Assembly (NCBI RefSeq): GCF_900083545.1
Contig: NZ_LT559262.1
Coordinates: forward strand, 2,079,673 to 2,143,672
From: Alistipes provencensis
Lineage (GTDB): Bacteria; Bacteroidota; Bacteroidia; Bacteroidales; Rikenellaceae
Length of the DNA: 64,000 bases
Direction of reading: 5' to 3'
Shown: positions 32,944 to 49,858 of the stretch, piece by piece
Position numbering within the stretch: position 1 is the first letter of the stretch
Layout of the letters: each line of letters opens with the position of its first letter
Program-made: the position numbers and the translations under genes
The notes under the pieces: generated by a model
Databases searched by the model: none
What the model saw: only the letters and a program-made list of their open reading frames with translations
What the model was told of the DNA's origin: nothing

Positions 32944-33933
32944 ATGAAAAAATACCTGTTTATATTGTCTGCAACCTGCGCATTGACATCGTGTTACGAC
33001 GATTATGTAAAGGATAACGACACGCAGGCCGTGGGTTTTGCCAACCAGACCGACGTCCGCTCGGTCATCGTGGGCGAGGGCATGAAGTTCTCCACGGGCG
33101 TGGCGCTGGGCGGCACGATCGAGAACTCCGTGGACCGTCCGATCAGTTTCGAGATCGACTATTCGCTGGTCAGCGACGCCACGCTGCAGGCGATGAAGAC
33201 CCACGTCTTCTCCTACATCCAGAACCTCACCAAGCCGCTCGGTTCGCTCGAAGCGCTGTCGGCCGAGGAGTATAAGCTGCTGCCCGAGGGCGGCACCGAC
33301 GGCCGTGTGACGATCCGTCAGGGCTCGCATCTGGGGCAGATCTTCATCAAGATCGACTCGGTGAAGTTCCTCGCCGACGCTTCGCGCACGCTGCCCAAAT
33401 ATGTGATTCCCCTGCGCCTGACCGACGGCAACGGCACCGACCTGATGGCCGACAAAGCCACCTCGGTGATCGGCGTGCGGTACGAGAACATGCTCTTCGG
33501 CAACTACTGGCACGGCGGCGAGACCGTCGTGACGGACGCTTCGGGCGCGGAGGTCAACCGCATAGCCTATTACACGACCGTTCCGCAGCCCGAGACGCGC
33601 GTCTGGACGCTGACCACCGTGGCGCCGTTTGAATTGACGGCCAACGCCGTGGGCGGCGAGTTGAACGGCTCGAAAGCCCAGCTTACGCTGACGCAGGGCG
33701 AAAGCGGGGCGATCACGGTGAGTGCCGCGGACGGCGCCGACTATGCGGTCGAGGCCGACGGCGACTGCTCGTTCAACCGGGCCAAGCTGTTGCAGAACCG
33801 CAGGATTTACCTCAAGTACAAGTATGTAAAAGAGGGGCTGACCTACCACGCCACCGATACGCTGACGTTCCGCAACCGCGTGCGCGACGGCGTGAACGAG
33901 TGGCAGGACGAGAACTCCGGTAACTACGAATAG
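32944..33933 (+). CDS. DUF1735-like surface lipoprotein of the PUL
   Basis: 329 residues with a lipoprotein signal ending LTSC (Cys at 17) and an acidic YDDYVKDND start suited to surface export. The first part (AVGFANQTDVRSVIVGEGMKFSTGVALGGTIENSVDRPISFEID) is like the DUF1735 / BT_3987-type N-terminal domain often found right after SusD in PULs. There it forms a beta-sandwich that binds glycans or supports the enzyme complex. The second half has no family I recognise but is rich in beta strands. It lies 27 bp after susD and four bases before the first enzyme gene. Confidence 0.8.
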   Translation: MKKYLFILSATCALTSCYDDYVKDNDTQAVGFANQTDVRSVIVGEGMKFSTGVALGGTIENSVDRPISFEIDYSLVSDATLQAMKTHVFSYIQNLTKPLGSLEALSAEEYKLLPEGGTDGRVTIRQGSHLGQIFIKIDSVKFLADASRTLPKYVIPLRLTDGNGTDLMADKATSVIGVRYENMLFGNYWHGGETVVTDASGAEVNRIAYYTTVPQPETRVWTLTTVAPFELTANAVGGELNGSKAQLTLTQGESGAITVSAADGADYAVEADGDCSFNRAKLLQNRRIYLKYKYVKEGLTYHATDTLTFRNRVRDGVNEWQDENSGNYE

Positions 33934-33937
33934 CCGT

Positions 33938-35389
33938 ATGAAACGACTCATGAACAGACTGACGCTTCTGGCGGCCGCTGTGCTGGCCGTCGGAAGCCTC
34001 GCGGCCAAGGCTCCGGAGTACCGGCAGGTCGAGGCCCGGGAGAATGCGCAGAAGCCCGAGTGGAAGAGCTACGAGGCGAAGACCGTCGACCGCCTTCCGG
34101 GTTTCAACTGTCGGAAAAGCGACCCCAGACAGAGCGTCTACGGCGGCTGGATGGTCGACCGGCAGGAGGCTACCGGGTTCTTCCGCACGCAGAAGATCGG
34201 CGACCGCTGGTGGCTGATCGATCCCGAGGGATGGCCCTACATCCATAAAGCCGTGGCCGTCTTTACGACGGGCGGTTCGGACCGCCAGAAGAAGGCCCTC
34301 GAAGAGAAGTTCGGAACGCCCGCGGCATGGGCCGCCGACCAGCAGGAGATGCTGCGCCGCTACGGTTTCAACGGGCTGGGCGCGTGGTCGGACGTGAACA
34401 CGGTCCGCGAGTCGGAGCATCCGATGCCCTACACGGTGATCGTGAACCCGATGGGCATGTACCGCGGACAGCACCGCAGGCACTTCGGCGGCAAGTACAA
34501 GCAGGCCGGATGGCAGGGTTACCGCTTCGATCTGGCGATGGTCTTCGATCCGGGGTTCGACGCCGTGATCGACCGGGCTATCGCGCCCATCGCCAAATAC
34601 CGGGACGACAAGTACCTGCTGGGCTATTTCACCGACAACGAGCTGCCGTGGGTCAACGACGCGCTGGACCGCCACCTGACGCTGCTGGCGCACGACGAGG
34701 ATGCCTACATCGCCGTCCGCAAGTGGTATGACGAGCGCAAGGGCGTGAAGGACGCTCCGGCGGGTGAGATCACCGATGCCGACCGCAAGGCGTTTCAGGC
34801 CTTCTATTTCGACACCTACATGCGCAAGGTCACCGAGGCGCTCCGCAAGTACGACTCCAACCACCTCTATCTGGGCTGCCGCTTCAACCAGCACCATCAG
34901 GAGATGGCCAGTCCGGAGATCTTCGCCGTGGCCGGCAAGTACATGGATGTGATCTCGATCAACCACTACCGGCTGTGGGAACCCAACGCCGCGTGGATGG
35001 CCAACTGGGAGAAGTGGTCGGGCAAACCGTTCATCATCACCGAGTTCTACACCAAGGGCGAGGATTCGGGGCTGCCCAACAACACCGGCGCCGGATGGAA
35101 CGTCCGCACGCAGGCCGACCGCGGCTGGTTCTACCAGAATTTCGTGACGGAGCTGCTGCGCAGCGGCAACTGCGTGGGCTGGCACTGGTTCACCTACATG
35201 GACAACGATCCCCAAAACCTGAAGACCGACCCCTCGAACCGCGATTCGAACAAAGGTGTGGTCAACTGGGCCTTCGAGCCTTACACCGTACTGTTGGACG
35301 AGATGAAGCAGTTGAACGACTGCACCTACCGGCTGATCCGCCATCTGGACGCGGAGAAGGCTGAAGAAAACCGAAAAACGACCAAATAG
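33938..35389 (+). CDS. Secreted clan GH-A-like glycoside hydrolase, first of a tandem pair
   Basis: 483 residues with a signal peptide (RLTLLAAAVLAVGSLAAKA). The fold reads as a TIM barrel of clan GH-A type: FFRTQKIGDRWWLIDPEGWPY near residue 80, a first carboxylate in GYFTDNELPW (Glu235, likely acid/base), then SINHYRLWEPN and a second in PFIITEFYTKGED (Glu369, likely nucleophile). The arrangement resembles GH50-type agarases (WWL-DP-G, then YF-DNE), but I cannot assign the CAZy family. It is not lipidated, unlike its neighbour. An alternative ATG lies at 33950. The pair shares long identical blocks, so it arose by duplication. Confidence 0.8.
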   Translation: MKRLMNRLTLLAAAVLAVGSLAAKAPEYRQVEARENAQKPEWKSYEAKTVDRLPGFNCRKSDPRQSVYGGWMVDRQEATGFFRTQKIGDRWWLIDPEGWPYIHKAVAVFTTGGSDRQKKALEEKFGTPAAWAADQQEMLRRYGFNGLGAWSDVNTVRESEHPMPYTVIVNPMGMYRGQHRRHFGGKYKQAGWQGYRFDLAMVFDPGFDAVIDRAIAPIAKYRDDKYLLGYFTDNELPWVNDALDRHLTLLAHDEDAYIAVRKWYDERKGVKDAPAGEITDADRKAFQAFYFDTYMRKVTEALRKYDSNHLYLGCRFNQHHQEMASPEIFAVAGKYMDVISINHYRLWEPNAAWMANWEKWSGKPFIITEFYTKGEDSGLPNNTGAGWNVRTQADRGWFYQNFVTELLRSGNCVGWHWFTYMDNDPQNLKTDPSNRDSNKGVVNWAFEPYTVLLDEMKQLNDCTYRLIRHLDAEKAEENRKTTK

Positions 35390-35391
35390 CC

Positions 35392-36867
35392 ATGAATAAA
35401 TCGCTGAAATACCTGCTTTTGATCGCAGCCGCCGCACTGCTGGCCGCCGGCTGTACGGAAGACAAGACCTATGCGCTGCCCGAGGTTTATCCCTCCGACG
35501 GGGGCGACACGCCTTCGGACGTGGAACCGCCCCACGAGGTGCGCGCCCGCAAGAACAAGACCTCGGCATGGGGCGACTACCTCGCCTACACGGTCGACCG
35601 CATCCACGGCTTTACGCCCGGCGAAGACCCCGTCACCGACAAGTACGGCGGCTGGAAAGTCTCCTCGCTGCAGGCGACCGGCTTTTTCCGCACGCAGCAG
35701 ATCGGCGGACGCTGGTGGATGATAACCCCCGAAGGCAACCTCTACATCTGCAAGGGCGTGGCCGTGTTCAGCGCCGGCGGTTCGGACCGTCAGCAGGCCA
35801 AGCTGCAGGAGAAGTTCGGGTCGACCTCGGAGTGGGCCCGTCAGGAGACCTCGATGCTCAAGGCCCGCGGGTTCAACGGACTGGGTGCGTGGTCCAACGT
35901 GGAGACCGTGCGCAAGCTCACCGAGCCGATGCCCTACACGGTGATCGTCAGTCCGATGGGCAAGCTCAACAGCTACATCAAATCCTCGGGCGAAGAGGCC
36001 GGGGCGAGCTGGTCGGGCTGGGAGGGTTATCCCAACGACTTTGCGATGGTCTTCCACCCCAAGTTCGACGAGTATGTCGAGAGCGAGATCTCGACCATCT
36101 CCAAGTACAAGGACGATCCCTACTGCATCGGCTATTTCACGGACAATGAGATTCCGTGGAAGGACTATGCGCTGGACCGCTGTCTGGAGAAGTGGCCCGA
36201 GACGCACATCAACCACAAGAAGGCTCAGGAGTGGCTCGACCAGCGCAAGGGCAAGACCGGGGCGAAGCTCTCCGAAGCTACGGCCGCCGACCGCCGGGCT
36301 TTCATCGCCTACTGTCTGGAGATCTATTTGGAGAAGGTGACCAAGGCGATCAAAAAGTACGATCCCAACCACCTCTATCTGGGCTGCCGCTTCAATCAGT
36401 GGAACTACGAACTGGTGAACGACGAAATGTTCAAGACCGCCGGCAAGTATATGGACATCCTCTCGATCAACCACTATCAGAAATGGGAGCCCGATGCACA
36501 GGCCGTGCAGAACTGGGGCGCGTGGTCCGGGAAGCCGTTCTTCGTGACGGAGTTCTACACCAAGGGCGAGGATTCGGAGCTGCCGAACACCACCGGCGCC
36601 GGATGGAACGTCCGCACGCAGGCCGAGCGCGGCTATTTCTACCAGAATTTCGTGCTGAAACTCATCGAGAGCAAGGTTTGCGTCGGCTGGCACTGGTTCA
36701 CCTATCAGGACAACGATCCCGAGAACCCGAACACCGACCCCTCGAACCGCGACTCGAACAAGGGCATGGTGACTTGGGATTTCCAGTACTATTCGCCCCT
36801 GCTGGACAACATGGAGGAGCTGAACGGCAATGTCTATCAACTGACCCGCTTTTACGATGCGCAATAA
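35392..36867 (+). CDS. Lipoprotein clan GH-A-like glycoside hydrolase, second of a tandem pair
   Basis: 491 residues, paralogue of the preceding gene and starting two bases after it. It differs in having a lipoprotein signal (LLAAGC, Cys21) and an extra Pro/Asp-rich linker (about 27-50), so it is probably displayed on the surface while the first copy is soluble in the periplasm. The putative catalytic residues are conserved: Glu253 in YFTDNEIPW and Glu387 in FFVTEFYTKGED. Shared blocks such as HLYLGCRFNQ and GAGWNVRTQA flank the active site. Substrate unknown. The two copies may split the same reaction between the cell surface and the periplasm. Confidence 0.8.
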   Translation: MNKSLKYLLLIAAAALLAAGCTEDKTYALPEVYPSDGGDTPSDVEPPHEVRARKNKTSAWGDYLAYTVDRIHGFTPGEDPVTDKYGGWKVSSLQATGFFRTQQIGGRWWMITPEGNLYICKGVAVFSAGGSDRQQAKLQEKFGSTSEWARQETSMLKARGFNGLGAWSNVETVRKLTEPMPYTVIVSPMGKLNSYIKSSGEEAGASWSGWEGYPNDFAMVFHPKFDEYVESEISTISKYKDDPYCIGYFTDNEIPWKDYALDRCLEKWPETHINHKKAQEWLDQRKGKTGAKLSEATAADRRAFIAYCLEIYLEKVTKAIKKYDPNHLYLGCRFNQWNYELVNDEMFKTAGKYMDILSINHYQKWEPDAQAVQNWGAWSGKPFFVTEFYTKGEDSELPNTTGAGWNVRTQAERGYFYQNFVLKLIESKVCVGWHWFTYQDNDPENPNTDPSNRDSNKGMVTWDFQYYSPLLDNMEELNGNVYQLTRFYDAQ

Positions 36868-36879
36868 AACCGACCGATT

Positions 36880-38232
36880 ATGAAAACCCTGTTGAAATCA
36901 AAAATAATTCTGCTGCTGGGCATCGTGGCGCTGTGGGGCTGCGAGGAGGATGTGACCCCGCTGCAGCACACTGCGCCGCAGGTAACGTTCCCGGTGCAGG
37001 AGACCTCGCTGACGGCCGTCGTCGGCGATCCGGTGGAGTTCCGGGCCGACATCGAGAGCGGCGACAAACTCACCTGCGGATGGTATGTCGACGGGACGCT
37101 CGAAGCCTCGACCCCCGGAATGACCTATACCTTCAGCGCCCCGGGCGACTACGAGGTGCGCTTCGAGGCCCGCAACGGCGCCGGGAAGATCGAGAAAAGC
37201 TATGCCGTGGAGGTCTCCGACGTGCTGGAGATGCACCTTTCGGTGGGCGACTCGACGCGCATCGTGCGCCGGCAGCTCGACATCCTGAAAGTGATGGCCA
37301 TCGTCGACGCCGGATCGAACGTCACTCACGAGTGGAAAGTGGATAACGTGGTGAAGTCGGACAAGGCTTATTTCGACACGTTCGACCTGCCCGAAGCCAA
37401 GGTCTACACCGTGGCCTACACGGGTAAGAATGCGACGGGAACTTTCCAAAAGAGTTTCGAGGTGCAGGCCACGGAGCGCCCGCTGGAGATCAGTTTCTCG
37501 AACGAGGACGCGACGATCCCCTGCAAGGAGGGAGCTGTCGTGGAGATCATCGCCACGGTGAAATACGGCGGCACGGGCGTGCAGCACGAATGGAAGGTGG
37601 ACGGTGTGACGGTCTCGACCGATGCCGTGTTCAGCCGGGCGTTCGAGAACGGAGGTCCCTACACGATCGCCTACCACGGCGTGAACTCCAAGAATGAGAC
37701 CGTGGACCGCACATGGACTGTGACGATCGTGCCGTCGGGTGCGCTCTTCGAGCATTTCGAGGATTATACCGAGCTGCCCAAGTGGTGGACCCTGAAACAG
37801 AACGATCCGGGTATCCAACTGGCCGACAACCCCAAGCCCGAGGGTATCAATACCAGCCTGAAGGTACTCAGCGACAAGGTGAACGGTACGGGCGGCACGT
37901 CGGGTTATTTCGACCTGAAGCTGAAGGATATCCCGGTCGACAAGATCGACGTGACGAAGTACACGGGCATCCGGTTCAAGGTCTATCTGGGCAAGAACAA
38001 GTATTATCCCCGTGTGGAGTACGCCGGAACCAAGTATGCTTCGGTAAGCAAGCCGCAGTTCAAGGACGAGTGGGAGGTGCTGGAGTACCGGTTCGGTTCG
38101 AACCTCGATGCGACGAAGAATCTGACGTTCCGTCCGCTGCTGCAGGAGAACGGCAGCAATATCGCCTCGGGAGCCGTGACCGAAACCAACACCCGCACGG
38201 TGTATATCGACGATATCGAGTTCTTAGAGTAA
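36880..38232 (+). CDS. PUL lipoprotein with three PKD/Ig-like domains and a C-terminal beta-sandwich
   Basis: 450 residues with a lipoprotein signal (LLLGIVALWGC, Cys21). Three PKD/Ig-like modules follow at about 33-113, 116-197 and 200-284, each with a HEWKVD- or CGWYVDG-type strand and a YTIAY/YTVAY strand. The C-terminal domain (288-450: FEHFEDYTELPKWWTLKQ to TRTVYIDDIEFLE) looks like a carbohydrate-binding jelly roll. No catalytic motif is seen. It is likely a surface glycan-binding protein whose Ig stalk holds the binding domain away from the membrane. It is paralogous to the next gene. Confidence 0.8.
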   Translation: MKTLLKSKIILLLGIVALWGCEEDVTPLQHTAPQVTFPVQETSLTAVVGDPVEFRADIESGDKLTCGWYVDGTLEASTPGMTYTFSAPGDYEVRFEARNGAGKIEKSYAVEVSDVLEMHLSVGDSTRIVRRQLDILKVMAIVDAGSNVTHEWKVDNVVKSDKAYFDTFDLPEAKVYTVAYTGKNATGTFQKSFEVQATERPLEISFSNEDATIPCKEGAVVEIIATVKYGGTGVQHEWKVDGVTVSTDAVFSRAFENGGPYTIAYHGVNSKNETVDRTWTVTIVPSGALFEHFEDYTELPKWWTLKQNDPGIQLADNPKPEGINTSLKVLSDKVNGTGGTSGYFDLKLKDIPVDKIDVTKYTGIRFKVYLGKNKYYPRVEYAGTKYASVSKPQFKDEWEVLEYRFGSNLDATKNLTFRPLLQENGSNIASGAVTETNTRTVYIDDIEFLE

Positions 38233-38238
38233 CCTGAA

Positions 38239-39966
38239 ATGCGAAAAACGATGAAAAAGATAATTTGGATGCAGGCCGTCCTGCTGATGGGACTAACTGC
38301 GCTGTGGGGATGCGGCGACGACGACACGACGGGCGAGCAGCCGGCCGTCATGCCGCAGGTGACCTTCCCCGTCACGGAATCCGCCGTGTCGGCCTATGTC
38401 GACGACGCCGTGCGTTTCGAGGCGGTGATCGAGAGTCCCGGGCCGCTCAGTTGCAACTGGTTCGTCGACGGAAAACTGATGGCCTCGACGGCCTCGATGA
38501 CCTATGTGTTCCGGGCCAAAGGCACCTATGACGTGCATTTCGAGGCTTCGAACACGGTCGGAAAGGTCGAGAAGGACTATTCGGTGACGGTCGAGGGCTC
38601 GCCCCTCGGGATCGAGTTCTCGAACGAGGAGGAGACCATCTCCTGCCTGCCGGGCGAGGAGGTGCTCATCACGGCCACGGTCGTGGCCGGGGACAAGGAT
38701 GTCGTTCACGAGTGGAAGGTCGGCGGCGATGTCGTTTCCTCGACCGCCGAGTTCAAGCACACGTTCGACCGGATGGGGTCGTACACGGTGACCTACCGCG
38801 GCGTGAATGCCGACGAGGTGTCGGTGAACCGTGAATGGACCGTGACGGTCGACGAACTGCCGCTGGAGATCGAATTCTCGGTGACCGATGCCACGATCCC
38901 CTGCGTGCAGGGCAGCGAGGTCGCTATTACGGCGACGGTGAAGAACGGCGGAACGGGCATCGTCCACGAGTGGAAGGTCGGCGACGATGTGGCTTCGGAG
39001 ACTGCGGAGTTCAAGCGGAAGTTCGACGAGGTAGGCACCTTTACCGTGACTTATAAAGGCAAGAACGGCAAGGGCGAGGAAAAAACTTCGTCGTGGACGG
39101 TCGGGGTCGAGGAGAAACCGTTGGAGATCGAGTTTTCGAAGGCCGACGGTTCGACGCTCCGGAGTGCCGCGGGTGACGAGGTGGTCATCACGGCGACGGT
39201 GAAGGGCGGCGGAACGGGCCTCGTGCACGAGTGGAAGGTCGGCAGCGACGTGGTGTCGGCGACTGCGGAGTTCAGGCATACGTTCGACGCCACGGGAACC
39301 TTTACCGTGACCTATAAGGGCAAGAACGCCAAGGGCGAGGAGAAAACCGCCTCGTGGACGGTCGAGGTGAGCGAAGCGGGTGCCGGCTATATGTTCGAGA
39401 ATTTCGAGAAGCGCGATGTAATGCCCGGGCATTTTATCAACGGAAACGCTGCGATAGAGGGCACGACTTTGCAAGAGAATCCTTACAAAACGGCTACCAA
39501 CCCCAGCAACAAGGTGCTCCGCGATTTGTTGCTGAAAGAAAGCCCAACCTCCGGATTCTTCGACATGGGATTCTCGCATCTGACCGACCGGGCAAAATAC
39601 CGGGCAATCCGCGTGAAGGTTTACCTTGGAAAGAATCTCTATTATCCGCATATGCAGATCAATACGCTGCCCAACGGTAAGAAGAACAAGCTGCCCAGCA
39701 AGATCAACGGACAGCCGTTCACAAGCTCGATGACTGCGGAAGACTGGAAGGCGTTGATCAAGACTGATGACTGGAACGTGCTTGTTTACGACCTGATCGA
39801 CTGCGGATATCAAACGGACAACGGTAGCGCCGTGACGAATTTCGGGAATATCACGACCGTACAGTTCCGTCCGTTGTCGAACTTCAATGGCGATGGCGTG
39901 AGTGGCCGCGACGAAGTGACCAACAACCGAACCGTCTATTACGACGATTTCGAGTTCCTCGAATAA
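38239..39966 (+). CDS. PUL lipoprotein with four PKD/Ig-like domains and a C-terminal beta-sandwich
   Basis: 575 residues, paralogue of the previous gene with one module more. The lipoprotein signal ends TALWGC (Cys25 from the first ATG; a second ATG at 38251 is as plausible). Module 1 spans about 39-120. Modules 2-4 (121-379) repeat with a period of 86 residues, each carrying VHEWKVG and a YTVTYRG/FTVTYKG strand. The C-terminal domain (about 383-575, from MFENFEKRDVMPGHF to RTVYYDDFEFLE) aligns with that of its neighbour and probably binds glycan. Codon choice in the C-terminal part looks somewhat less GC-rich than in the repeats, which could mean a separate origin. Confidence 0.8.
   Translation: MRKTMKKIIWMQAVLLMGLTALWGCGDDDTTGEQPAVMPQVTFPVTESAVSAYVDDAVRFEAVIESPGPLSCNWFVDGKLMASTASMTYVFRAKGTYDVHFEASNTVGKVEKDYSVTVEGSPLGIEFSNEEETISCLPGEEVLITATVVAGDKDVVHEWKVGGDVVSSTAEFKHTFDRMGSYTVTYRGVNADEVSVNREWTVTVDELPLEIEFSVTDATIPCVQGSEVAITATVKNGGTGIVHEWKVGDDVASETAEFKRKFDEVGTFTVTYKGKNGKGEEKTSSWTVGVEEKPLEIEFSKADGSTLRSAAGDEVVITATVKGGGTGLVHEWKVGSDVVSATAEFRHTFDATGTFTVTYKGKNAKGEEKTASWTVEVSEAGAGYMFENFEKRDVMPGHFINGNAAIEGTTLQENPYKTATNPSNKVLRDLLLKESPTSGFFDMGFSHLTDRAKYRAIRVKVYLGKNLYYPHMQINTLPNGKKNKLPSKINGQPFTSSMTAEDWKALIKTDDWNVLVYDLIDCGYQTDNGSAVTNFGNITTVQFRPLSNFNGDGVSGRDEVTNNRTVYYDDFEFLE
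38599..39375 (+). repeat. 258-bp in-frame tandem repeats encoding PKD/Ig modules 2-4
   Basis: Three consecutive units start near 38599, 38857 and 39115. The second and third share long stretches almost base for base (for example around GTGACTTATAAAGGCAAGAA at 39048 and its counterpart at 39306). The similarity suggests recent amplification or gene conversion, and offers a substrate for further gain or loss of modules. Confidence 0.8.
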
Positions 39967-39989
39967 GCGGGAGAATACCCGACCCTTTG

Positions 39990-40023
39990 CGGCCTCCGTC
40001 CTGTGACGGGCGGAGGCCGTTTT
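39990..40023 (+). terminator. Hairpin with short T-run inside the PUL (candidate attenuator)
   Basis: Perfect 9-bp stem CGGCCTCCG/CGGAGGCCG (39990-39998 with 40011-40019), 12-nt loop, four T. The T-run is short, so it may be a partial terminator that lowers expression of the GH3 and GH2 genes relative to the binding proteins, or a processing and stability element. Confidence 0.55.
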
Positions 40024-40055
40024 ATGACTCAACAAAAAAAGGCACATTAGTTACG

Positions 40056-42251
40056 ATGAACAGAAAAGCAATCGCCCTGTGGCTGCTCGTGGCGGCGGCG
40101 GGTCTGGCGGGATGTTCCGACCGGGAGGTCTACAGGGACCCCGCGGCGGGAGTCGAAGACCGCGTGGAGGACCTGTTGGGACGCATGACGCTCGAAGAGA
40201 AGGTGATGCAGGTCACGCAGTGGACCTATGGAAAGAACATGAACGTCAATAACGTCGAGACCCAGACCAAGGCCGTGAGCCCGATGATCGGCTCGCTGCT
40301 CTACCGCAGCACCAGTCCGGCGTATTACAACCGGATTCAGCGCAAGGCGGTGGAGGAGTCGCGGCTCGGGATTCCGATTCTGTGCGGCTTCGACGTGATC
40401 CACGGCTACCGCACGATCTTCCCGATTCCGCTGGGGCAGGCCTGCTCGTGGAACGAGGCGCTGGTCGCGGAGTCGTGCCGCATCGCGGCGCGCGAATCGC
40501 GGCTGTCGGGCGTGCACTGGACCTTTTCGCCGATGGTCGACGTGGCGCGCGACGCCCGCTGGGGCCGCGTGTCGGAGGGTTACGGCGAAGACCCCTACCT
40601 GAACGGGATGATGGGTGTCGCGGCGGTGAAGGGTTATCAGGGCGACGACCTGACGGACGGCGGAGCGATCGCCGCCTGCCTGAAACATTTCGTGGGCTAT
40701 GCCCATTCCGACGGAGGCCGCGATTATCACTACACCGAAATCTCCCCGCAGACGCTGTGGGATACGGCGCTCCCGCCGTTCGAAATGGGGGTGAAGGCCG
40801 GCGCCGCGACGGTGATGAGCGCCTTCAACGACATTTCGGGCGTACCCGCGTCGGCCAACCGCTACACGATGACCGACATCCTGCGCGGGATGTGGGGCTT
40901 CGACGGCCTCGTGGTCTCGGACTGGGACGCCGTGAAGCAGCTCGTCGCGCAGGGCGTGGCCGCCGACCGCGCCGAGGCTGCGGCCAAGGCGATCACGGCC
41001 GGGCTGGACATGGACATGGTGGACGATGTCTACCGGGAGAACATGGAGGAGCTGGTCAACAGCGGACGGGTGCCGGAAAAGGTGCTGGACGAAGCCGTGC
41101 GGCGCATCCTGCGTGTGAAATTCCGCCTCGGGCTGTTCGAGAACCCCTATATCGAGGAGCTGCCCGACCAGCAGCGTTACCTTTCGACCGAAGCGCGCGC
41201 CGCGGCGCGTGAACTGGCGGCCGAGAGCATGGTGCTGCTGAAGAACCGGGGCGAGACGCTGCCCGTCGTGGGCGATGTGCGGCGCATCGCGCTGATGGGC
41301 CCGATGGCCGACAACCGCGCGGACCTGATGGGCTCGTGGTGGGGGCAGGGCGAGGCCGACGACGTGGTGACGATCCTCGAGGGCGTGAAGGCCGAGTTTG
41401 CCGGAAAGGCCCGGATCGACTATGTGAAAGGGTGCGATTTCGACGGCGAGGACCGTTCGGAGTTCGCCCGGGCCGCGGCCGCGGCCCGCGGGGCCGATCT
41501 GGTGGTGCTCTGCATGGGCGAGAAGCGCAACTGGAGCGGCGAGAACGCCTCGCGAGCCAGCCTTGCGCTGCCGGCGATTCAGGAGGAGTTCGTGCGCGAA
41601 ATGGCCCGCACGGGACGGCCCGTCGTGGTGCTGCTCTCGTCGGGGCGTCCCGTGGACGTGCGCGGCATCGAGCCTGCGGCCGACGCGCTGGTCGAAATCT
41701 GGCAGCCGGGGACCGAGGGCGGCAGCGCCGTGGCGCAACTGCTTTCGGGCAAGGTCAACCCCTCGGGGCGTCTGGCCATTACGTTCCCGGTCTGCGCCGA
41801 GCAGCAGCCCGTCTACTACAACCAGCGGCAGGCGGCGCGTCCCAAGTCGGGGCGTTACCAGAACCTGCAGCACGAGCCGATGTATCCGTTCGGCTACGGG
41901 CTGAGTTACACGACGTTCGATTACGGGACGGTGCGGCTCGACCGCGAGACCCTGCGCCGCGGCGAACGGCTGACGGCCGAGGTCGAGGGGACCAACGGCG
42001 GGGCGATGGACGGCAAGGAGACCGTGATGTGGTTTCTTTCGGACCCGACGGCCTCGATATCGCGCCCTGTGCGTGAACTGAAATACTTCGAGAAGCAGTT
42101 CATCCCGGCGGGCGAAAGCCGCGTGTTCCGTTTCGAGATCGACCCCGAGCGCGACCTGTCGTTCCCCGACCACACGGGTAAGCGGCTGTTGGAGAACGGC
42201 ACGTTCTACCTGCATGTGAACGGGCAGAAAGTGAAATTCGAACTGATTTAG
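40056..42251 (+). CDS. Glycoside hydrolase family 3 lipoprotein (beta-glucosidase type)
   Basis: 731 residues with a lipoprotein signal (VAAAGLAGC, Cys20); in-frame ATGs upstream of 40056 add no family sequence. The GH3 N-terminal barrel shows GRMTLEEKVMQVTQW, FDVIHGYRTIFPIPLGQACSWNEAL, CLKHFVGYAHSDGGRDY and the nucleophile motif GLVVSDWDAVKQL (Asp289). The C-terminal domain has GEKRNWSGENAS with the probable acid/base Glu, and the fibronectin-like end (MYPFGYGLSYTTFDYG) is present. The layout is that of BglX-type periplasmic exo-acting beta-glucosidases. Exact sugar specificity is not readable. Confidence 0.94.
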   Translation: MNRKAIALWLLVAAAGLAGCSDREVYRDPAAGVEDRVEDLLGRMTLEEKVMQVTQWTYGKNMNVNNVETQTKAVSPMIGSLLYRSTSPAYYNRIQRKAVEESRLGIPILCGFDVIHGYRTIFPIPLGQACSWNEALVAESCRIAARESRLSGVHWTFSPMVDVARDARWGRVSEGYGEDPYLNGMMGVAAVKGYQGDDLTDGGAIAACLKHFVGYAHSDGGRDYHYTEISPQTLWDTALPPFEMGVKAGAATVMSAFNDISGVPASANRYTMTDILRGMWGFDGLVVSDWDAVKQLVAQGVAADRAEAAAKAITAGLDMDMVDDVYRENMEELVNSGRVPEKVLDEAVRRILRVKFRLGLFENPYIEELPDQQRYLSTEARAAARELAAESMVLLKNRGETLPVVGDVRRIALMGPMADNRADLMGSWWGQGEADDVVTILEGVKAEFAGKARIDYVKGCDFDGEDRSEFARAAAAARGADLVVLCMGEKRNWSGENASRASLALPAIQEEFVREMARTGRPVVVLLSSGRPVDVRGIEPAADALVEIWQPGTEGGSAVAQLLSGKVNPSGRLAITFPVCAEQQPVYYNQRQAARPKSGRYQNLQHEPMYPFGYGLSYTTFDYGTVRLDRETLRRGERLTAEVEGTNGGAMDGKETVMWFLSDPTASISRPVRELKYFEKQFIPAGESRVFRFEIDPERDLSFPDHTGKRLLENGTFYLHVNGQKVKFELI

Positions 42252-42329
42252 TAACTTTGCGAACCTACGCAGTATCGGCCGACAGTTGAAAGTCCGGGAT
42301 TGTCCGTGCCCCGACCGGGCGCAATGTAC

Positions 42330-42430
42330 GCCATCTCCCTCCCTGAGGGAGGGTTGGGGTGGGGTCAGATTTGCAAATGACGCCAAAGGCGGCAGGAACG
42401 GCGGTCGACAGCGATTGGGGCATGAATTAT
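42330..42430 (+). repeat. Dispersed intergenic repeat, copy D
   Basis: Between GH3 and GH2. Palindrome CCCTCCCT/AGGGAGGG (42337-42344 with 42346-42353), then TTGGGGTGGGGTCAGATTTGCAAA, then a short hairpin CGCC-AAA-GGCG (42381-42391), then GTCGACAGCGATTGGGGCATGAA, which also matches the tail of copy B. The gap 42252-42444 holds nothing else I can support; a lone TAACTTTG at 42252 has no partner box. Confidence 0.82.
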
Positions 42431-42444
42431 ATAACTTGAAAATT

Positions 42445-44274
42445 ATGAAGAACCTACTATCAATTCTGGTGCTGGCAGGATGCTGTGCGGCGCTGCCCGC
42501 GGCGGCGGGGGAGGAGGCTCCCGCACCGCAGATCGTCAACGTCGCCGACCGCGAAACCATGTCGCTCGATGGACTCTGGAAAACGATCGTCGACCCGTAT
42601 GAGAACGGCTACTACGACTATCGCCGCAAACCGCTGAAAGACGCTATGTCCTACTTTGCCGACGACGATTTCGACAAGGACCGCACCAAGCTCTTCGAGT
42701 ACAATTTCAACACCGACCGCACGCTGCTCGTGCCGGGCGACTGGAACACCCAGCGTCCCCAGCTCTACTACTACGAGGGTACGGTCTGGTACCGCAACCT
42801 GTTCGACTACAAGCCCCGCACGGACCGACGCGCGTTCCTCTATTTCGGGGCCGCGAACTACGAAACGATCGTGGGACTGAACGGCCGCAAGATCGGTAAG
42901 CACGTCGGCGGCTACACGCCCTTCAACTTCGAGATCACCGACAAGGTGCGGGAGGGGCAGAACTCGTTGGTGGTGAAGGTCGACAACAAGCGGCTGGCCG
43001 AGGGCGTCCCGACGCTCAACTCCGACTGGTGGAATTACGGCGGGCTGACGCGCAGCGTTATGATCGTCGAGACGCCGCTGACCTTCATCCGCGACTATTC
43101 GGTGCAGTTGAAAAAGGGCGAGCCGCAGGTGATCGCCGGCTGGGTGCAGCTCGACGGCGCCGAGGCCGAGCAGACGGTGACGGTGGAGATTCCCGAACTG
43201 AAAATATCGAAACGGGTCACGACCGACGCCAACGGTTATGCGGCGTTCGAAATGAAAGCCAAACCGGTCTATTGGTCGCCCGAGAATCCGAAACTCTATG
43301 CCGTGCGGATCGCCGCCGAGACCGACTCGGTGAATGACCGCATCGGCTTCCGCACGATCGAAACCCGGGGCACGAAGATTCTGCTCAACGGCAAAGAGGT
43401 ATTCTGCCGCGGCGTGTCGATCCACGAGGAGGCGCCCTACGGCATGAGCGGCCGCGCTTTCTCCGAAGAACAGGCCCGCATCCTGCTGGGATGGGCCAAG
43501 GAGATGGGCTGCAACTTCGTGCGGCTGGCGCACTATCCCCACAACGAGGCGATGGTCCGTGCGGCCGAGGAGATGGGGCTGATGGTGTGGTCGGAGATTC
43601 CGGTCTACTGGACGATCCAGTGGGAGAATCCCGCGACCTATGCCAATGCCGAGGCGCAGTTGGCGGACATGATTACGCGCGATAAGAACCGCGCCAACGT
43701 GGTGATCTGGTCGGTGGCCAACGAAACCCCGCACGGCGAGGCGCGCCTGAAATTCCTGCGGTCGCTCATCGCCAAGGCCCGCAGCATGGACGACACCCGG
43801 CTGGTGAGCGCCGCCATGGAGAAGACCCGCCTGAAGCCCGACCTGCTGACGGTGAAGGACGATCTGGCCGATCTGGTGGACCTTATCAGCTTCAACCAGT
43901 ATGTCGGCTGGTACGACGGCGAGTCGGAGAAGTGCGACCGGGTGAACTGGACTTTCGACCTCGAAAAGCCGGTCTTCATTTCGGAGTTCGGCGGCGGGGC
44001 GGTTTACGGCCGTCACGGCGAACGCACGGAGCGTTTCACCGAGGAGTACATGGAGGACCTCTACGAGCGCAGCGTCGACATGTTCAAGCGGATGCCCGGG
44101 CTGGCCGGGACCACGCCGTGGGTGCTGAAGGATTTCCGTTCGCCGCGCCGCCAGATGGTCGGCATTCAGGACGACTTCAACCGCAAGGGGCTCGTTTCGG
44201 ATCAGGGAGGCAAAAAGAAGGCTTATTTCGTCATGCAGCGCTGGTATGACGAGTTGGAGAAGCAGTACCAATAA
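42445..44274 (+). CDS. Glycoside hydrolase family 2, predicted beta-glucuronidase
   Basis: 609 residues. The start MKNLLSILVLAGC follows repeat D, while the longer in-frame extension is repeat sequence. The signal may be lipoprotein type (LAGC, Cys13). Domains run sugar-binding jelly roll (WYRNLFDYKPRTDRRAFLYF), Ig-like, then TIM barrel. Acid/base Glu427 lies in VIWSVANETPHGE and nucleophile Glu514 in PVFISEFGGG; FNQYVGWYDG matches the NRYYGWY block of E. coli GUS. The motif NRKG at 579-582 corresponds to the NxKG motif that binds the glucuronate carboxylate in beta-glucuronidases. Some NxKG enzymes also take galacturonate, so uronide specificity is firmer than the exact sugar. It is last in the operon before a strong terminator. 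Confidence 0.88.
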   Translation: MKNLLSILVLAGCCAALPAAAGEEAPAPQIVNVADRETMSLDGLWKTIVDPYENGYYDYRRKPLKDAMSYFADDDFDKDRTKLFEYNFNTDRTLLVPGDWNTQRPQLYYYEGTVWYRNLFDYKPRTDRRAFLYFGAANYETIVGLNGRKIGKHVGGYTPFNFEITDKVREGQNSLVVKVDNKRLAEGVPTLNSDWWNYGGLTRSVMIVETPLTFIRDYSVQLKKGEPQVIAGWVQLDGAEAEQTVTVEIPELKISKRVTTDANGYAAFEMKAKPVYWSPENPKLYAVRIAAETDSVNDRIGFRTIETRGTKILLNGKEVFCRGVSIHEEAPYGMSGRAFSEEQARILLGWAKEMGCNFVRLAHYPHNEAMVRAAEEMGLMVWSEIPVYWTIQWENPATYANAEAQLADMITRDKNRANVVIWSVANETPHGEARLKFLRSLIAKARSMDDTRLVSAAMEKTRLKPDLLTVKDDLADLVDLISFNQYVGWYDGESEKCDRVNWTFDLEKPVFISEFGGGAVYGRHGERTERFTEEYMEDLYERSVDMFKRMPGLAGTTPWVLKDFRSPRRQMVGIQDDFNRKGLVSDQGGKKKAYFVMQRWYDELEKQYQ

Positions 44275-44352: not shown

Positions 44353-44415
44353 CGTTCCCGATATCGAAAATTTCCCGAAATTTCGTATCTTGTCGGATGG
44401 ATAGAGAAACCGAGT

Positions 44416-44508
44416 ATGCGTAAATTGATCCTCTTTTTGCTGTTTCTGAGCTGGAATTTCCCCCCCCCCGGCGACTGCCGCCGCGCCTCCGGCTCAAATG
44501 GTATTTAA
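44416..44508 (+). pseudogene. Out-of-frame signal-peptide segment of the HTCS gene
   Basis: ATG at 44416 opens a typical signal peptide, MRKLILFLLFLSWNF, but after the C run the frame reads PPPGDCRRASGSNGI and stops at 44506-44508. Removing a single C would join it in frame to PPPATAAAPPAQ and then MVFKHLGISEGF of the sensor, giving a complete signal peptide with an Ala-rich cleavage region. As written, the sensor would lack its export signal. Confidence 0.8.
44460..44469 (+). repeat. C10 homopolymer tract in the HTCS leader
   Basis: Ten consecutive C between TTT and GG, inside the region coding for the signal peptide. The length is out of frame for the sensor by one base. Such tracts mutate by slipped-strand mispairing and are also prone to sequencing error. 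Confidence 0.9.
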
Positions 44509-47500
44509 ACACTTGGGCATCAGTGAGGGTTTCAACCAAACCAACGTAACCACCCTTTATCAGGACGAGAACGGCACGATCTGGGCCGCGGGCGTCGGCG
44601 GCGTGGTCCGCTACCGCGGATTGCAGACCGAGGAGCCGCTGATGTCCGAAGGTGCCGCGGAGCTGTTCCGCCCGATGAACGTCAAGGGCATCTACGGCGA
44701 GCAGAACGGCCTGATCTATTTCTACCAGCTTCGCAATATCGTCGAATACGACCTGCGGCGGGAGACCTTCCGGCCGCTCTTCACCGATTCTTTGCTCGAC
44801 AGCCGTTCGATTTCGGCCGCGACGGTCCGCGGGGGCCGCGTCTATGCCGCCGCCGGGGACCGCATCGTGGTCGCCTCGCCTGACGGGAAATGCAGCCAGT
44901 TGCTGCTGCCCCCGATGAGCGAGGTCTCGGCGCTGGCCTGCACGGCCGGGGGCGTGCTCTATGTCGGGACGCTCCATTCGGGTTTATACCGCCTCGATGA
45001 ACGCGGCACGGCGGAGTGCATCCTCCCGACGGCCTCGAAGATCAGCAGTCTGTTCGAGGACAGCCGCGGCGATTTGTGGGTCTGCACCCGCAGCGAGGGG
45101 CTTTACCGCCTCGACGCCGGGGGCGGCGTGCGGCGTTTCGTCCACGATCCGCGCCATCCCGAGGGGCTGGCGGACAACTATGTGCGCTGTATCTGCGAGG
45201 ACAGCGAGGGCCGGATGTGGATCGGCATGATGTTCGGACTGGACTGCTACGACCCCGCGTCGGACCGTTTCTATCACTTCGGACGTTCGGATAATCCGCT
45301 TTACGGCATGCGCAACCTGACGGTGGAGTGCATCATGCGCGACCGCCGGGGTGCGATCTGGTTCGGGTCGTTCTATACGGGAATCTCCTATTTCCATCCC
45401 CACGAGGCGCTGTTCCGCGTGGTCCCGATCGAGGGCGAGGACACGACGTGGACCATCGTCGCCGACGTGACGCTCGACCGCCGCGGCGACCTCTGGGCCG
45501 GAACCTCGGACAAGGGACTCTACTTCTACGACCGTGCGCGCCGCCGGGGACGCTTCTTCAACATGGGCAACAGCGGCATCCCGAGCAACAACGTCAAGAG
45601 CATCCGCTACGACGCCGAACGCGACCAGTTGTGGCTGGGAATGTTCATGGGCGGCGTCTGCGTCTACGACATTCCTTCGGGGCGTTTCGAACGCCTGAAG
45701 ATCACCGATCAGGGCGGCGGGCTGGAAAATATCGAGATCGTCCACAGCCTTTCGCGCGAGGGCGATGCGATCTACGCCGGGACCTATGCCGGGGTTTACC
45801 GCATCGACATGAGGACCCGCCGTGCGGAGCGCATCCTGAACCAGCAGCGGGTGTTCAACGTGCTGAGCGGCGGCGACGGGTGGCTCTATGTGGTGACGGG
45901 GCAGGTGAATTTTAGGGTCTACCGCCGCGACGAGGCGGGTCTTTACCAGCTCTATTTCAACCGCGTCGTGCAGCAGGACATGGTGACCTCGCTGTTCCGC
46001 GACGACCGCGGACGGGCATGGGTCGGGACGACCCGCGGCGGGGCGCTGCTGTTCGACCGCGACCGGAAGGAGTTCGTGACCTATGACCGGGCGGCCTGCG
46101 GCATTGCGAGCGACTATGTGAGCTCCATTGCGCAGACCCCCTCGGGGCTGATGGTCTTCGGGACCAATGCCGGGATGTCGCTGGTCGATGCGGACAGTCT
46201 CCGCAGCGAGAATTTCAACATCCGCAACGGATTTCCGCTGCTGTCGCTCGAGAACGGCTGCCTGTGGCGCGGCGAGGGGGACGAGATGCTGGCGGGCGGC
46301 GTCGACGGCATCGTGTCGTTCACGGGGCAGGACCTCGTCCGTGCCGGGCGTGTGCCGCAGTTATTCTTCGCGTCGCTCTCGGTGAACGAGCATCCCGTGC
46401 GGGCCGGCGACCGGACCGGCATTCTGGACGAGGCGATGGCCTACACGAAGTCGATTTCGCTGGGACATAAATACAACATCGTGGACATCGCTTTCGGGAC
46501 CGACAACGCCGCGGATTTCAACCTCGGCGACTATCAGTACAAGCTCATCGGCTACGACGAGGCGTGGCGTCCGCTGCCGGGCAATAACATCCGCTACATG
46601 AACCTCCCGCCGGGGCGTTACCAACTGGCCGTGCAGAGCCGTCCGACCCGCCTGCTCGACGGCGGCGGGCGCATCGAACTCGACATCCGGGTCTACCCGC
46701 CGTTCTACGCCAGCATCTTCGCCTACATCCTCTATGTGCTGCTGATTATGCTCATCACGGCGTGGGTGGTCCGCTACTACTACACGAAAAAGCAGTTGGA
46801 GCAGTCGCTGGCCATGGAGCGTATGGCCCGGGAGCAGCAGGAGCGCATCACGCAGTGGAAACTGGTCTTCTTCACCAACATTTCGCACGAGTTCCGCACG
46901 CCGCTGACGCTGATTCAGGGACAATTGGACCTGCTGGCGCGGCAGGAGCTGCCGGGGGTGCTGAAAGGTTACCTGATGAGCGTCCGCCGCAACGCCCTGC
47001 GGCTGCGCGATCTGGTCAACGAGCTGATCGACTTCCGCAAGCAGGAGCAGGGATACATGTCGCTCAAGGTGAGCCGGCAGGATCTGGTGGCCTATCTGGC
47101 CGAGGTGTGCGGCACCTTCGAGGAGTACAGCGGCATCCGCGGGGTGGAGCTGGACTATGTGCCCGGGATGGCGCGGCTGGAGCTGCCGTTCGACCCCGTG
47201 CAGTTGCAGAAAGTCTTCTACAACCTGATAAGCAACGCATTCAAGCATACCGACCGGGGCGGCCGGATCACGGTGACGCTCGCGGCGGACGACGCGCAGG
47301 CCGTGGTGAAGGTGGCCGATACGGGCCACGGCATCGAGGAGAAGTTCTTCGCGGCGATCTTCGAACGCTTCTACCACAACGAGGCCGACACGCAGGACGC
47401 CGGGGTCGGCATCGGGCTGGCCCTCTCGAAAGGCATCGTCGAACTGCACGGCGGAGGGATCGGTGTCGAGAGCGAGGTGGGCGTGGGCTCGACCTTCACG

Positions 47501-48412
47501 GTGACGCTCCTGCTGAATCCCGATTTCAGCGGCAATTCCAACGTCGAGGTGGTCGAAAAGCAGGAATATCCCCGTCCGGCACCCGTGGCCGACTATCTGC
47601 CCGCTCCCGAACGGATTCCGGGGTCGGAGGAGCTGCCGCGCCTGCTGGTCGTCGAGGACGACGACGAGCTGCGGAGCATGTTCGGCACCATCTTCTCGCA
47701 GTATTACCGCGTGACGCTGGCCCCCGACGGCGAGGAGGGACTGCGGCTGGCGCGCGAGGAGCAGCCCGACCTGATCGTGAGCGACGTGCTGATGCCCGGG
47801 ATGTCGGGAACGGAGCTGTGCGCGGCGGTCAAGCGCGATTTCGGGACCTGCCACATTCCCGTGATCCTGCTCACGGCGCTCTCGTCGCCCGAGCAGCGTA
47901 TCACGGGGCTCGAAAGCGGCGCCGACGACTATGTCTCGAAGCCCTTCGACATGGACGTGCTGATGGCCAAGTGCAACGGCATGGTGCGCAACCGCCGGCT
48001 GTTGCAGCGCAAATTCCTCGAAGGAAATTCCGGACCCGCGTCGGAGACGCTTTCGGGCAATCCGATGGACGAGGCTTTCGTGCGCAAGACGCTGGCGCTG
48101 ATCGGCGACCATCTCGACAGCGAGTCGCTGGGTGTCGGGATGCTGAGCCGCGAACTGGCCCTGAGCCGCACGGCGCTGTTCGCCAAGATCAAGGGCGTCT
48201 TCGGGCAGACTCCCACCGAACTGATCCAAGGCATCCGCCTGCGCGAAGCCGCACGGATGCTGGCCGAATGTCCCGAGCTGAAGATCGCCGAGATCGCCGA
48301 CCGGGTGGGCATCAATTCACTGCAATATTTCGGCAAACTCTTCAAGGCGCGCTTCGGCTGCACGCCGTCGGAATACCGCGCGGCACCCGGAGAGAGCCGG
48401 GAGGGCGCCTGA
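44498..48412 (+). CDS. Hybrid two-component system sensor-regulator (HTCS) of the PUL
   Basis: HTCS proteins fuse a complete two-component system and activate PULs on binding an oligosaccharide. From the internal ATG, 1304 residues are open: beta-propeller repeats up to about 650 (YQDENGTIWAAG, LFEDSRGDLWVCT, CEDSEGRMWIGM), a Y_Y_Y domain (about 658-731), one membrane helix (about 738-762), HisKA with His797 in FFTNISHEFRTPL, an HATPase with VADTGHGIEEK and GVGIGLALSKGIVELHGG, a receiver with Asp1096 in LIVSDVLMPGMSG, and a C-terminal AraC helix-turn-helix. All core residues are intact. The N-terminal signal peptide is out of frame because of the C10 tract. Position directly after the PUL supports it as the cognate regulator. 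Confidence 0.93.
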   Translation: MVFKHLGISEGFNQTNVTTLYQDENGTIWAAGVGGVVRYRGLQTEEPLMSEGAAELFRPMNVKGIYGEQNGLIYFYQLRNIVEYDLRRETFRPLFTDSLLDSRSISAATVRGGRVYAAAGDRIVVASPDGKCSQLLLPPMSEVSALACTAGGVLYVGTLHSGLYRLDERGTAECILPTASKISSLFEDSRGDLWVCTRSEGLYRLDAGGGVRRFVHDPRHPEGLADNYVRCICEDSEGRMWIGMMFGLDCYDPASDRFYHFGRSDNPLYGMRNLTVECIMRDRRGAIWFGSFYTGISYFHPHEALFRVVPIEGEDTTWTIVADVTLDRRGDLWAGTSDKGLYFYDRARRRGRFFNMGNSGIPSNNVKSIRYDAERDQLWLGMFMGGVCVYDIPSGRFERLKITDQGGGLENIEIVHSLSREGDAIYAGTYAGVYRIDMRTRRAERILNQQRVFNVLSGGDGWLYVVTGQVNFRVYRRDEAGLYQLYFNRVVQQDMVTSLFRDDRGRAWVGTTRGGALLFDRDRKEFVTYDRAACGIASDYVSSIAQTPSGLMVFGTNAGMSLVDADSLRSENFNIRNGFPLLSLENGCLWRGEGDEMLAGGVDGIVSFTGQDLVRAGRVPQLFFASLSVNEHPVRAGDRTGILDEAMAYTKSISLGHKYNIVDIAFGTDNAADFNLGDYQYKLIGYDEAWRPLPGNNIRYMNLPPGRYQLAVQSRPTRLLDGGGRIELDIRVYPPFYASIFAYILYVLLIMLITAWVVRYYYTKKQLEQSLAMERMAREQQERITQWKLVFFTNISHEFRTPLTLIQGQLDLLARQELPGVLKGYLMSVRRNALRLRDLVNELIDFRKQEQGYMSLKVSRQDLVAYLAEVCGTFEEYSGIRGVELDYVPGMARLELPFDPVQLQKVFYNLISNAFKHTDRGGRITVTLAADDAQAVVKVADTGHGIEEKFFAAIFERFYHNEADTQDAGVGIGLALSKGIVELHGGGIGVESEVGVGSTFTVTLLLNPDFSGNSNVEVVEKQEYPRPAPVADYLPAPERIPGSEELPRLLVVEDDDELRSMFGTIFSQYYRVTLAPDGEEGLRLAREEQPDLIVSDVLMPGMSGTELCAAVKRDFGTCHIPVILLTALSSPEQRITGLESGADDYVSKPFDMDVLMAKCNGMVRNRRLLQRKFLEGNSGPASETLSGNPMDEAFVRKTLALIGDHLDSESLGVGMLSRELALSRTALFAKIKGVFGQTPTELIQGIRLREAARMLAECPELKIAEIADRVGINSLQYFGKLFKARFGCTPSEYRAAPGESREGA

Positions 48413-48468: not shown

Positions 48469-49858
48469 TCAGGCGAAGAGGTCGTTGAGCGTCTCGCTCA
48501 TGCTCGGGTGGGTGTAGACCGAGTTGCTCAGCTCGCGGGCCGTGATGCCGTGCTTCATGGCCAGTGCGACGGTGTTGATGACCTCGCTCGACTCGGGCCC
48601 GAAGAGCGTACAGCCCAGAATTAGGTCCGTTTCGGCATCGATCACCGCTTTGAAAATCCCTTCCGCGGGTCCCAGAATCCGGGCGCGGGGGATTGTGGAA
48701 ACCGCAATCTTCGTGACCCGGATGTCGAGCCCCGCTTTCCGGGCCTCGGCCTCGTGCATCCCGACGTGCGACAGGGGCGGGGCGATGAAGACCGAGTAGG
48801 GGACCGGCCCCCGGTTGGCCGTGGTGCGGCCACCGTCGCCGAAGAGTTCGTCGCGGATGATGCGGTAGTCGTCGAGCGAGATGTAGGTGAACTGGAGTCC
48901 GCCCGTGACGTCGCCGATGGCGTAGATGTTCGGCGCGGAGGTGTGCAGGTGTTCGTCTACCCGGATCGCGCCGCGTTCGTCGGTTTCGACTCCGGCCGCC
49001 GCGAGGTTCAGCCCTGCGGTGGCGGGCCGCCGGCCCGTGGCCAGCAGGACGCCGCCGGCCCGTGGCCAGCAGGACGGCGTCGGCTTCGACGGCGGTGTCG
49101 GCGCTCTCCTGCGTGACGGCGGCAATCACGCCTTCGGCCGTGTCGCGGAACGAGTTCACCCGGACGTTCAGCCGGAATTCGACGCCCTGCTTTTCGAGCA
49201 CTTCGCGGACGCCGGCGGCGATGTCGCGGTCCTCGCGGGGGATCAGCTCCGGGAATCCTTCGAGCACCGTGACCCGGGAACCGAACGAGGCGTACATCGA
49301 GGCGAATTCCAGTCCGATATAGCCGCCGCCTACGATCACCAGATGCTGCGGCAGGCGTTCCAGCTCCATGATCGAGGTGCTGGTGTAGACTCGCCGGCTT
49401 TCGGCGATGCCCGGGATGGGCGGAAGCGCCGTTTCGGCCCCGGTGTTGATGACGATGTGTTTTCCGCCGATCTCCAGCGTGCCGTCGGCGGTCTTCACCT
49501 CGACGGTTTCCGGGGAGAGGAAACGCCCCTCGCCCGTGTAGACGTCGATGAGGGGGTTGTCGGCCAGTTTGTGGTAGTTCTTGTCGCGGAGCAGGCCGAC
49601 CAGCGCGGTTTTCGAGGCGACGGCCTCGCGGTAGTAGGCCCGCTGCTGGTCTGCGGTCAGCGGATGCCCGGCAGCCGCGAGGGCGGCGCTGTGGATCAGG
49701 GCCTTGGTCGGGATGCAGCCGATGTTGATGCAGGTTCCCCCGTACATTTTGTCCGAGCGTTCGACCATGGCGACGCTCCATTGGTGTTGGGCCAGTTCGG
49801 CGGCGAGGGTCTTGCCTCCTTTGCCGAAGCCGATGATGACGGCATCATACTTTTTCAT
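48469..49858 (-). pseudogene. rclA: RclA-like pyridine nucleotide-disulfide oxidoreductase, frameshifted by a 25-bp duplication
   Basis: The two reading frames, 49858 down to about 49051 and then to 48469, join into one 454-residue protein if one copy of a 25-bp tandem repeat is removed. It opens MKKYDAVIIGFGKGGKTLAAELA, has the redox-active pair GGTCINIGCIPTK, the second Rossmann motif VIVGGGYIGLEFASMYASFGS, and GDVTGGLQFTYISLDDYRI, ending THPSMSETLNDLFA. These blocks match E. coli RclA, a flavoprotein copper(II) reductase that protects from hypochlorous acid, more closely than lipoamide dehydrogenase or MerA. As sequenced, translation runs into an unrelated frame after VEADAVLLATGRR, losing the dimerisation domain. 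It may be a pseudogene, a reversible switch, or an assembly error. Confidence 0.88.
49026..49075 (-). repeat. Perfect 25-bp tandem duplication inside rclA
   Basis: Two exact adjacent copies, 49026-49050 and 49051-49075. On the coding strand each unit begins GTCCTGCTGGCC and ends GGGCCGGCGGC. Because 25 is not a multiple of three, the duplication shifts the frame; the single-copy form reads AVLLATGRRPATAGLNLAAAG, which is the expected family sequence. Confidence 0.95.

Follow-up and report, generated by a model that had tools for sequence, protein, structure and literature searches.

An HTCS gene of Alistipes provencensis carries a run of ten C within the coding region of its signal peptide, and a gain or loss of one unit in this tract changes the frame in which the gene, intact in other respects, is read. 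We consider it probable that the C10 run is a homopolymeric contingency (phase-variation) tract, in which nine C would be the ON length and ten C the OFF length, and that the assembly caught the gene in the OFF state. Phase variation by slippage is the best explanation because ten C are found in two assemblies, the signal peptide is by all indications ancestral, G/C tracts of exactly nine form a class of their own in the genus, these tracts are enriched in HTCS genes, and several of them differ in frame between two closely related species.

A C10 Tract Within the HTCS Signal Peptide

Positions at this locus refer to the window, that is, the whole 64,000-nt stretch that was analysed, in which the C10 tract is the sole run of seven or more C or G. 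With ten C, translation from ATG 44416 gives MRKLILFLLFLSWNFPPPGDCRRASGSNGI and ends at the stop at 44506-44508, after 30 residues. The 1304-residue HTCS frame is open from ATG 44498 to 48412; it extends 5' to a stop at 44447-44449, with no ATG, GTG or TTG ahead of 44498. Read with nine C, the sequence becomes MRKLILFLLFLSWNFPPPATAAAPPAQ-MVFKHLG, in which a good signal peptide and an Ala-rich cleavage region are fused to the sensor. The initial annotation had described a signal peptide put out of frame by the tract and had stated that one C fewer would give a continuous protein running through the Ala-rich region into the intact sensor; the tract count and frame translation confirm the former, and the nine-C reading the latter. 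Pfam places all the HTCS domains in one protein (Reg_prop, Y_Y_Y, HisKA, HATPase_c, receiver, and AraC-type HTH). To judge from its reading frames, the assembly shows a frame-shifted HTCS gene and not a functional HTCS.

The features of the locus are listed in Table 1. The HTCS gene adjoins a SusCD-containing PUL, with two SusC/SusD pairs, PKD proteins, a GH3, and a GH2 upstream. The TCGTATCTTG box that precedes the gene looks like a Bacteroidetes -7 promoter element and may serve as such for the HTCS gene. As a separate observation, the window carries 25 bases at 49026-49050 that are absent from the sister species. This insertion, apparently a tandem duplication, breaks the gene of a pyridine-nucleotide-disulphide oxidoreductase (48.4-49.9 kb, minus strand) into two frames.

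Table 1. Features of the HTCS locus and the adjacent PUL (window positions).
Feature	Position	Strand	Basis or remark
SusC	22813-26025	+	Pfam
SusD	26047-27897	+	Pfam
SusC-like	27971-31090	+	Pfam
SusD (second pair)	31102-32916	+	Pfam
PUL-associated: BT_3987-like N-terminal domain protein, two proteins without Pfam match, two PKD proteins	32944-39966	+	
GH3 glycosidase	39987-42251	+	
GH2 glycosidase, directly 5' of HTCS	42286-44274	+	
Conserved TCGTATCTTG box, 24 nt 5' of ATG 44416	44383-44392	+	Identical in four species
Truncated 30-residue frame made with ten C	44416-44508	+	Translation
Signal peptide n- and h-region (MRKLILFLLFLSWNF)	44416-44459	+	Same start and in-frame signal peptide in relatives
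C10 tract	44460-44469	+	Ten C by count; nine C, in frame (proposed ON length); ten C, out of frame (proposed OFF length)
c-region and cleavage region, ATAAAPPAQ in nine-C frame	44470-44497	+	Comparison with sister species
HTCS body: Reg_prop propellers, Y_Y_Y, HisKA, HATPase_c, receiver, AraC-type HTH	44498-48412	+	Pfam

A Class of Exactly-Nine G/C Tracts in the Genus

The C10 tract is longer than expected by chance and is one of about 120 long C or G runs in the genome, nearly all of them exactly nine, which variously preserve or disrupt the frame of genes for sensors, transporters, and lipoproteins. In 744 kb of the genome, we counted 30 runs of six, none of seven, one of eight, 24 of nine, two of ten, and one of eleven, while the Markov expectation is about 77 at seven, 20 at eight, and 5 at nine. 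Across the whole genome, there are 109 C9/G9 tracts vs. 7 C7/G7 tracts and only seven C10/G10 tracts. In a 1.36-Mb subset, selected in part for the presence of tracts, 89 of the 101 tracts have a length of exactly nine. Nines outnumber sevens in most genomes of the genus, whereas they are fewer than sevens in nearly all of 78 genomes from other Bacteroidales families. Exactly-nine G/C homopolymers are thus a discrete, genus-wide class, with a gap at seven and eight. A scan of IMG/VR for the tract, with its length left flexible, gave no match.

The tracts follow the replichore, with C on the strand of positive GC skew in 90 of 98 cases (92%), and in 92 of 100 cases an A or T stands immediately 5' of the C tract. 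About one third of the tracts are found outside any recognisable coding sequence and share the length of nine; some general mutational process that favours nine must therefore be at work. Since such a process makes tracts, not each tract is a switch.

Tracts in HTCS and Other Genes

Nine of the 17 Reg_prop (HTCS) genes in the genome have a tract of at least nine in their open frame. These genes hold 10 tracts in total, compared with 2.2 expected by gene length (Poisson p about 1e-4), and the enrichment persists when the window gene is left out (p 3e-4); runs of four to six in the same genes are not, or hardly, enriched. Apart from the C10 tract, every HTCS tract in this genome has a length of nine and leaves the gene in frame. 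A second species (G054) has a tract in four of its six HTCS genes, although the two species are not fully independent since at least one of the G054 tract genes looks orthologous to one here. The HisKA domain (Pfam) is found in 10 of 72 tract genes vs. at most 1 of 73 length-matched controls. One HTCS gene (L281; C5:3355000-3364500) has two G9 tracts within a single open frame.

With regard to position, 16 of 51 in-gene tracts fall within the first 150 nt, compared with 4.6 expected. Tract genes are not enriched in signal peptides (39/77 vs. 40/76 length-matched genes), and the enrichment in SusC, scored by the Plug domain, is weak (14 of 72 tract genes vs. 10 of 73 controls), so that no claim is made from it. 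It was initially proposed that slippage would act here on the glycan sensor rather than on a surface structure. This holds at the present locus, but it does not extend to the whole class, as tracts are also present in genes for SusC and surface lipoproteins.

Tract Length and Frame Differences Between Two Species

We were able to align 33 tracts with those of the sister species, Alistipes sp. Zagget8 (G086). Most are nine in both, and several differ by one or two. Two genes have a tract of ten and are out of frame in the present genome, and have nine and are in frame in the sister species: a SusC gene (C5:2424228) and a lipoprotein gene (C5:1917857). Two further SusC genes show the reverse. 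At C5:1539453 (L181; G086 orthologue L154), the tract is nine and in frame within the signal peptide here, and ten and out of frame in the sister species; at C5:1377869, nine G are in frame here and the sister has ten, out of frame. For a secreted protein (C5:1228655), the two species again differ, the gene being in frame where the tract is nine and out of frame where it is ten. As the two species are about 8-10% diverged, these differences between putative ON and OFF states need not be fast or reversible. It is worth noting that the tract in the signal peptide of the SusC gene at C5:1539453 has the same anatomy as the C10 locus of the HTCS gene.

Other cases depart from a simple nine/ten relationship. 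A SusC gene (C5:2724409) has eleven in both species, and a flanking indel leaves it in frame in the present genome and out of frame in the sister. An HTCS gene of the sister species (L016, 5702-5712) is out of frame through a C11 in its kinase region, and a tract of nine would keep its frame. The gene of a multi-pass membrane protein (C5:2647715) is out of frame at C9, with the same tract length in the sister species, and the genes at C5:1698285 and C5:2578154 are in frame with ten. Therefore, nine is not the universal ON length.

Conservation of the Locus and Alternative Explanations

The HTCS signal peptide, one base out of frame in this assembly, is in frame in orthologues. In two of the same genus (G042 and G167), which are without a C tract, an ATG in the equivalent position opens a frame that continues unbroken across the signal peptide into the sensor. 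Likewise, 13 more distant HTCS loci (Bacteroides, Coprobacter, Pedobacter, Sphingobacterium, and others) encode an in-frame signal peptide directly before the conserved start of the propeller; a Tannerella HTCS was left out of this upstream comparison because its contig ends at that point. The TCGTATCTTG box is identical in all four close orthologues, and the upstream ATG is also conserved. Judging from these relatives, the signal peptide is ancestral.

The nearest relative, Zagget8, was assembled separately and is 92% identical in DNA. It shares the ATG, encodes an almost identical signal peptide, and has exactly ten C, so that the tract is ten in both species compared (two species, one assembly each). 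This shared length is the main weak point of the proposed switch, as it also fits a fixed frameshift or recoding.

A fixed frameshift would mean that the tract went from nine to ten C in the common ancestor, and that the sensor has since been inactive or cytoplasmic without switching back. Ten C in both species is what this predicts, yet the 1304 codons are still open in both and bear the marks of constraint: 326 codons differ between the two sensor genes, 223 of them synonymously, and 241 of the 378 base differences are at third positions. The gene is therefore not decaying, and the pattern indicates that its body is under purifying selection in both tract-bearing species. Between the tract and ATG 44498, moreover, there are three differences from the sister species, two of which are synonymous in the nine-C frame and none in the ten-C frame, which fits translation in the nine-C frame. 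Similar tracts also change length between the same two species. We therefore regard a fixed frameshift as unlikely.

Recoding, in the form of +1 ribosomal slippage at CCC-C or of RNA polymerase slippage, would yield a constant low amount of full-length sensor. CCC-C is a +1 slippery sequence when tRNA-Pro lacks m1G37, and recoding would predict a conserved C10, as found in the two species. However, the nine-long, in-frame tracts in the other HTCS genes of the genome argue against it, and slippage at CCC-C is inapplicable to the roughly two thirds of in-gene tracts that consist of G when read on the coding strand. We consider recoding quite unlikely. The phase switch is favoured over both explanations because the downstream frame is constrained, the segment behind the tract carries the signature of the nine-C frame, and other tracts of the class differ between putative ON and OFF lengths.

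A sequencing or assembly error, with a true length of nine, is very unlikely. Homopolymers are error-prone, but ten C in the independent Zagget8 assembly argue that the tract is not random assembly noise and rule out error as the main explanation; in addition, the assembly is not generally inflated, given the predominance of exactly nine among the 101 sampled tracts. The probability that translation natively begins at the internal ATG 44498, and that the signal peptide ahead of it is a product of chance, is close to nil: the frame is indeed open without a stop from this codon, but an internal start occurs in none of the HTCS relatives with readable upstream sequence, all of which have an in-frame signal peptide at the same point, and, with the conserved box and upstream ATG, these orthologues rule it out as the native start. 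Sequencing error and orthologues that start at the internal ATG without a signal peptide were the two objections raised in the initial annotation, and neither of them holds.

The Proposed Switch and Its Implications

In the switch that we propose, slipped-strand mispairing at replication would add or remove a C in the tract. With nine C, the modal tract length in the genus, translation from ATG 44416 would produce the full HTCS with its signal peptide, and the propeller sensor would be exported (ON). With ten C, translation would end after the truncated peptide, leaving at most an unexported protein made from 44498 (OFF), and the adjacent SusCD/GH3/GH2 PUL would not be inducible. The reversibility, the switching rate, and the effect on the PUL are inferred steps of this model. 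A phase switch of the PUL, as first suggested from the sequence, thus gains from the apparently ancestral signal peptide, the signs of purifying selection, and the one- or two-base differences between putative ON and OFF lengths at related tracts, and is weakened by the ten C that both species share at this locus.

The chances appear evenly balanced that these tracts together constitute a genus-wide slippage phasome, in which exactly-nine G/C tracts are selectively retained in HTCS genes, and also in SusC and lipoprotein genes, such that a population would pre-diversify its glycan sensing and import. For gut Bacteroidota, the induction of PULs is commonly regarded as a deterministic response to sensing. 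Were HTCS sensors to switch ON and OFF by slippage, clonal populations would include cells that are blind to a glycan, which would bear on niche partitioning, on colonisation experiments, and on the reading of "pseudogene" sensors in assemblies. Such a phasome, if real, would be the first case in Bacteroidota of PUL regulation switched by homopolymers.

Comparison With Known Phase-Variable Systems

In the open-access literature, we found nothing on homopolymer switching of HTCS or PULs, or on homopolymer phase variation in Alistipes. Phase variation of glycan-import genes is itself known from gut Bacteroidota: in Bacteroides, SusC/SusD, capsule, and other loci are subject to invertase-mediated phase variation (reviewed in PMC11868660). 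That mechanism is site-specific DNA inversion and not homopolymer slippage, and the reading frame of the sensor is not its target.

Slippage at G/C tracts is also known from other phyla. Campylobacter jejuni, whose strain NCTC11168 contains 29 polyG/polyC loci with a length of at least seven (PMC4965091), resembles the present genome in its many G/C tracts of at least seven, which range from 8 to 12 in length and turn genes ON or OFF by frameshift (PMC4965091). By contrast, its targets are mainly surface-modification genes, whereas the tracts here are nearly all nine, strand-biased, and enriched in HTCS genes. A polycytidine tract is also present in mga of group A Streptococcus, where slippage likewise affects a C tract in the gene of a transcription regulator (cited in PMC11868660); mga is a different type of regulator in a different phylum.

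The closest precedent appears to be bvgS, the sensor kinase gene of Bordetella pertussis. Virulent strains have six C in this gene and avirulent strains seven, the extra C in the coding C tract truncating the sensor histidine kinase and turning its regulon off (PMC1891110, citing Stibitz, 1989). The candidate HTCS switch would work in the same manner. In the bvgS case, the six-C tract lies inside the protein, a hybrid sensor kinase that regulates virulence in a Proteobacterium, whereas in the HTCS gene ten C lie in the signal peptide of a glycan sensor, and the genome holds many related tracts. Overall, the principle is known from the C6/C7 tract of bvgS, while a glycan sensor of Bacteroidota as its target and a class of tracts of exactly nine appear to be new in the open-access literature searched.
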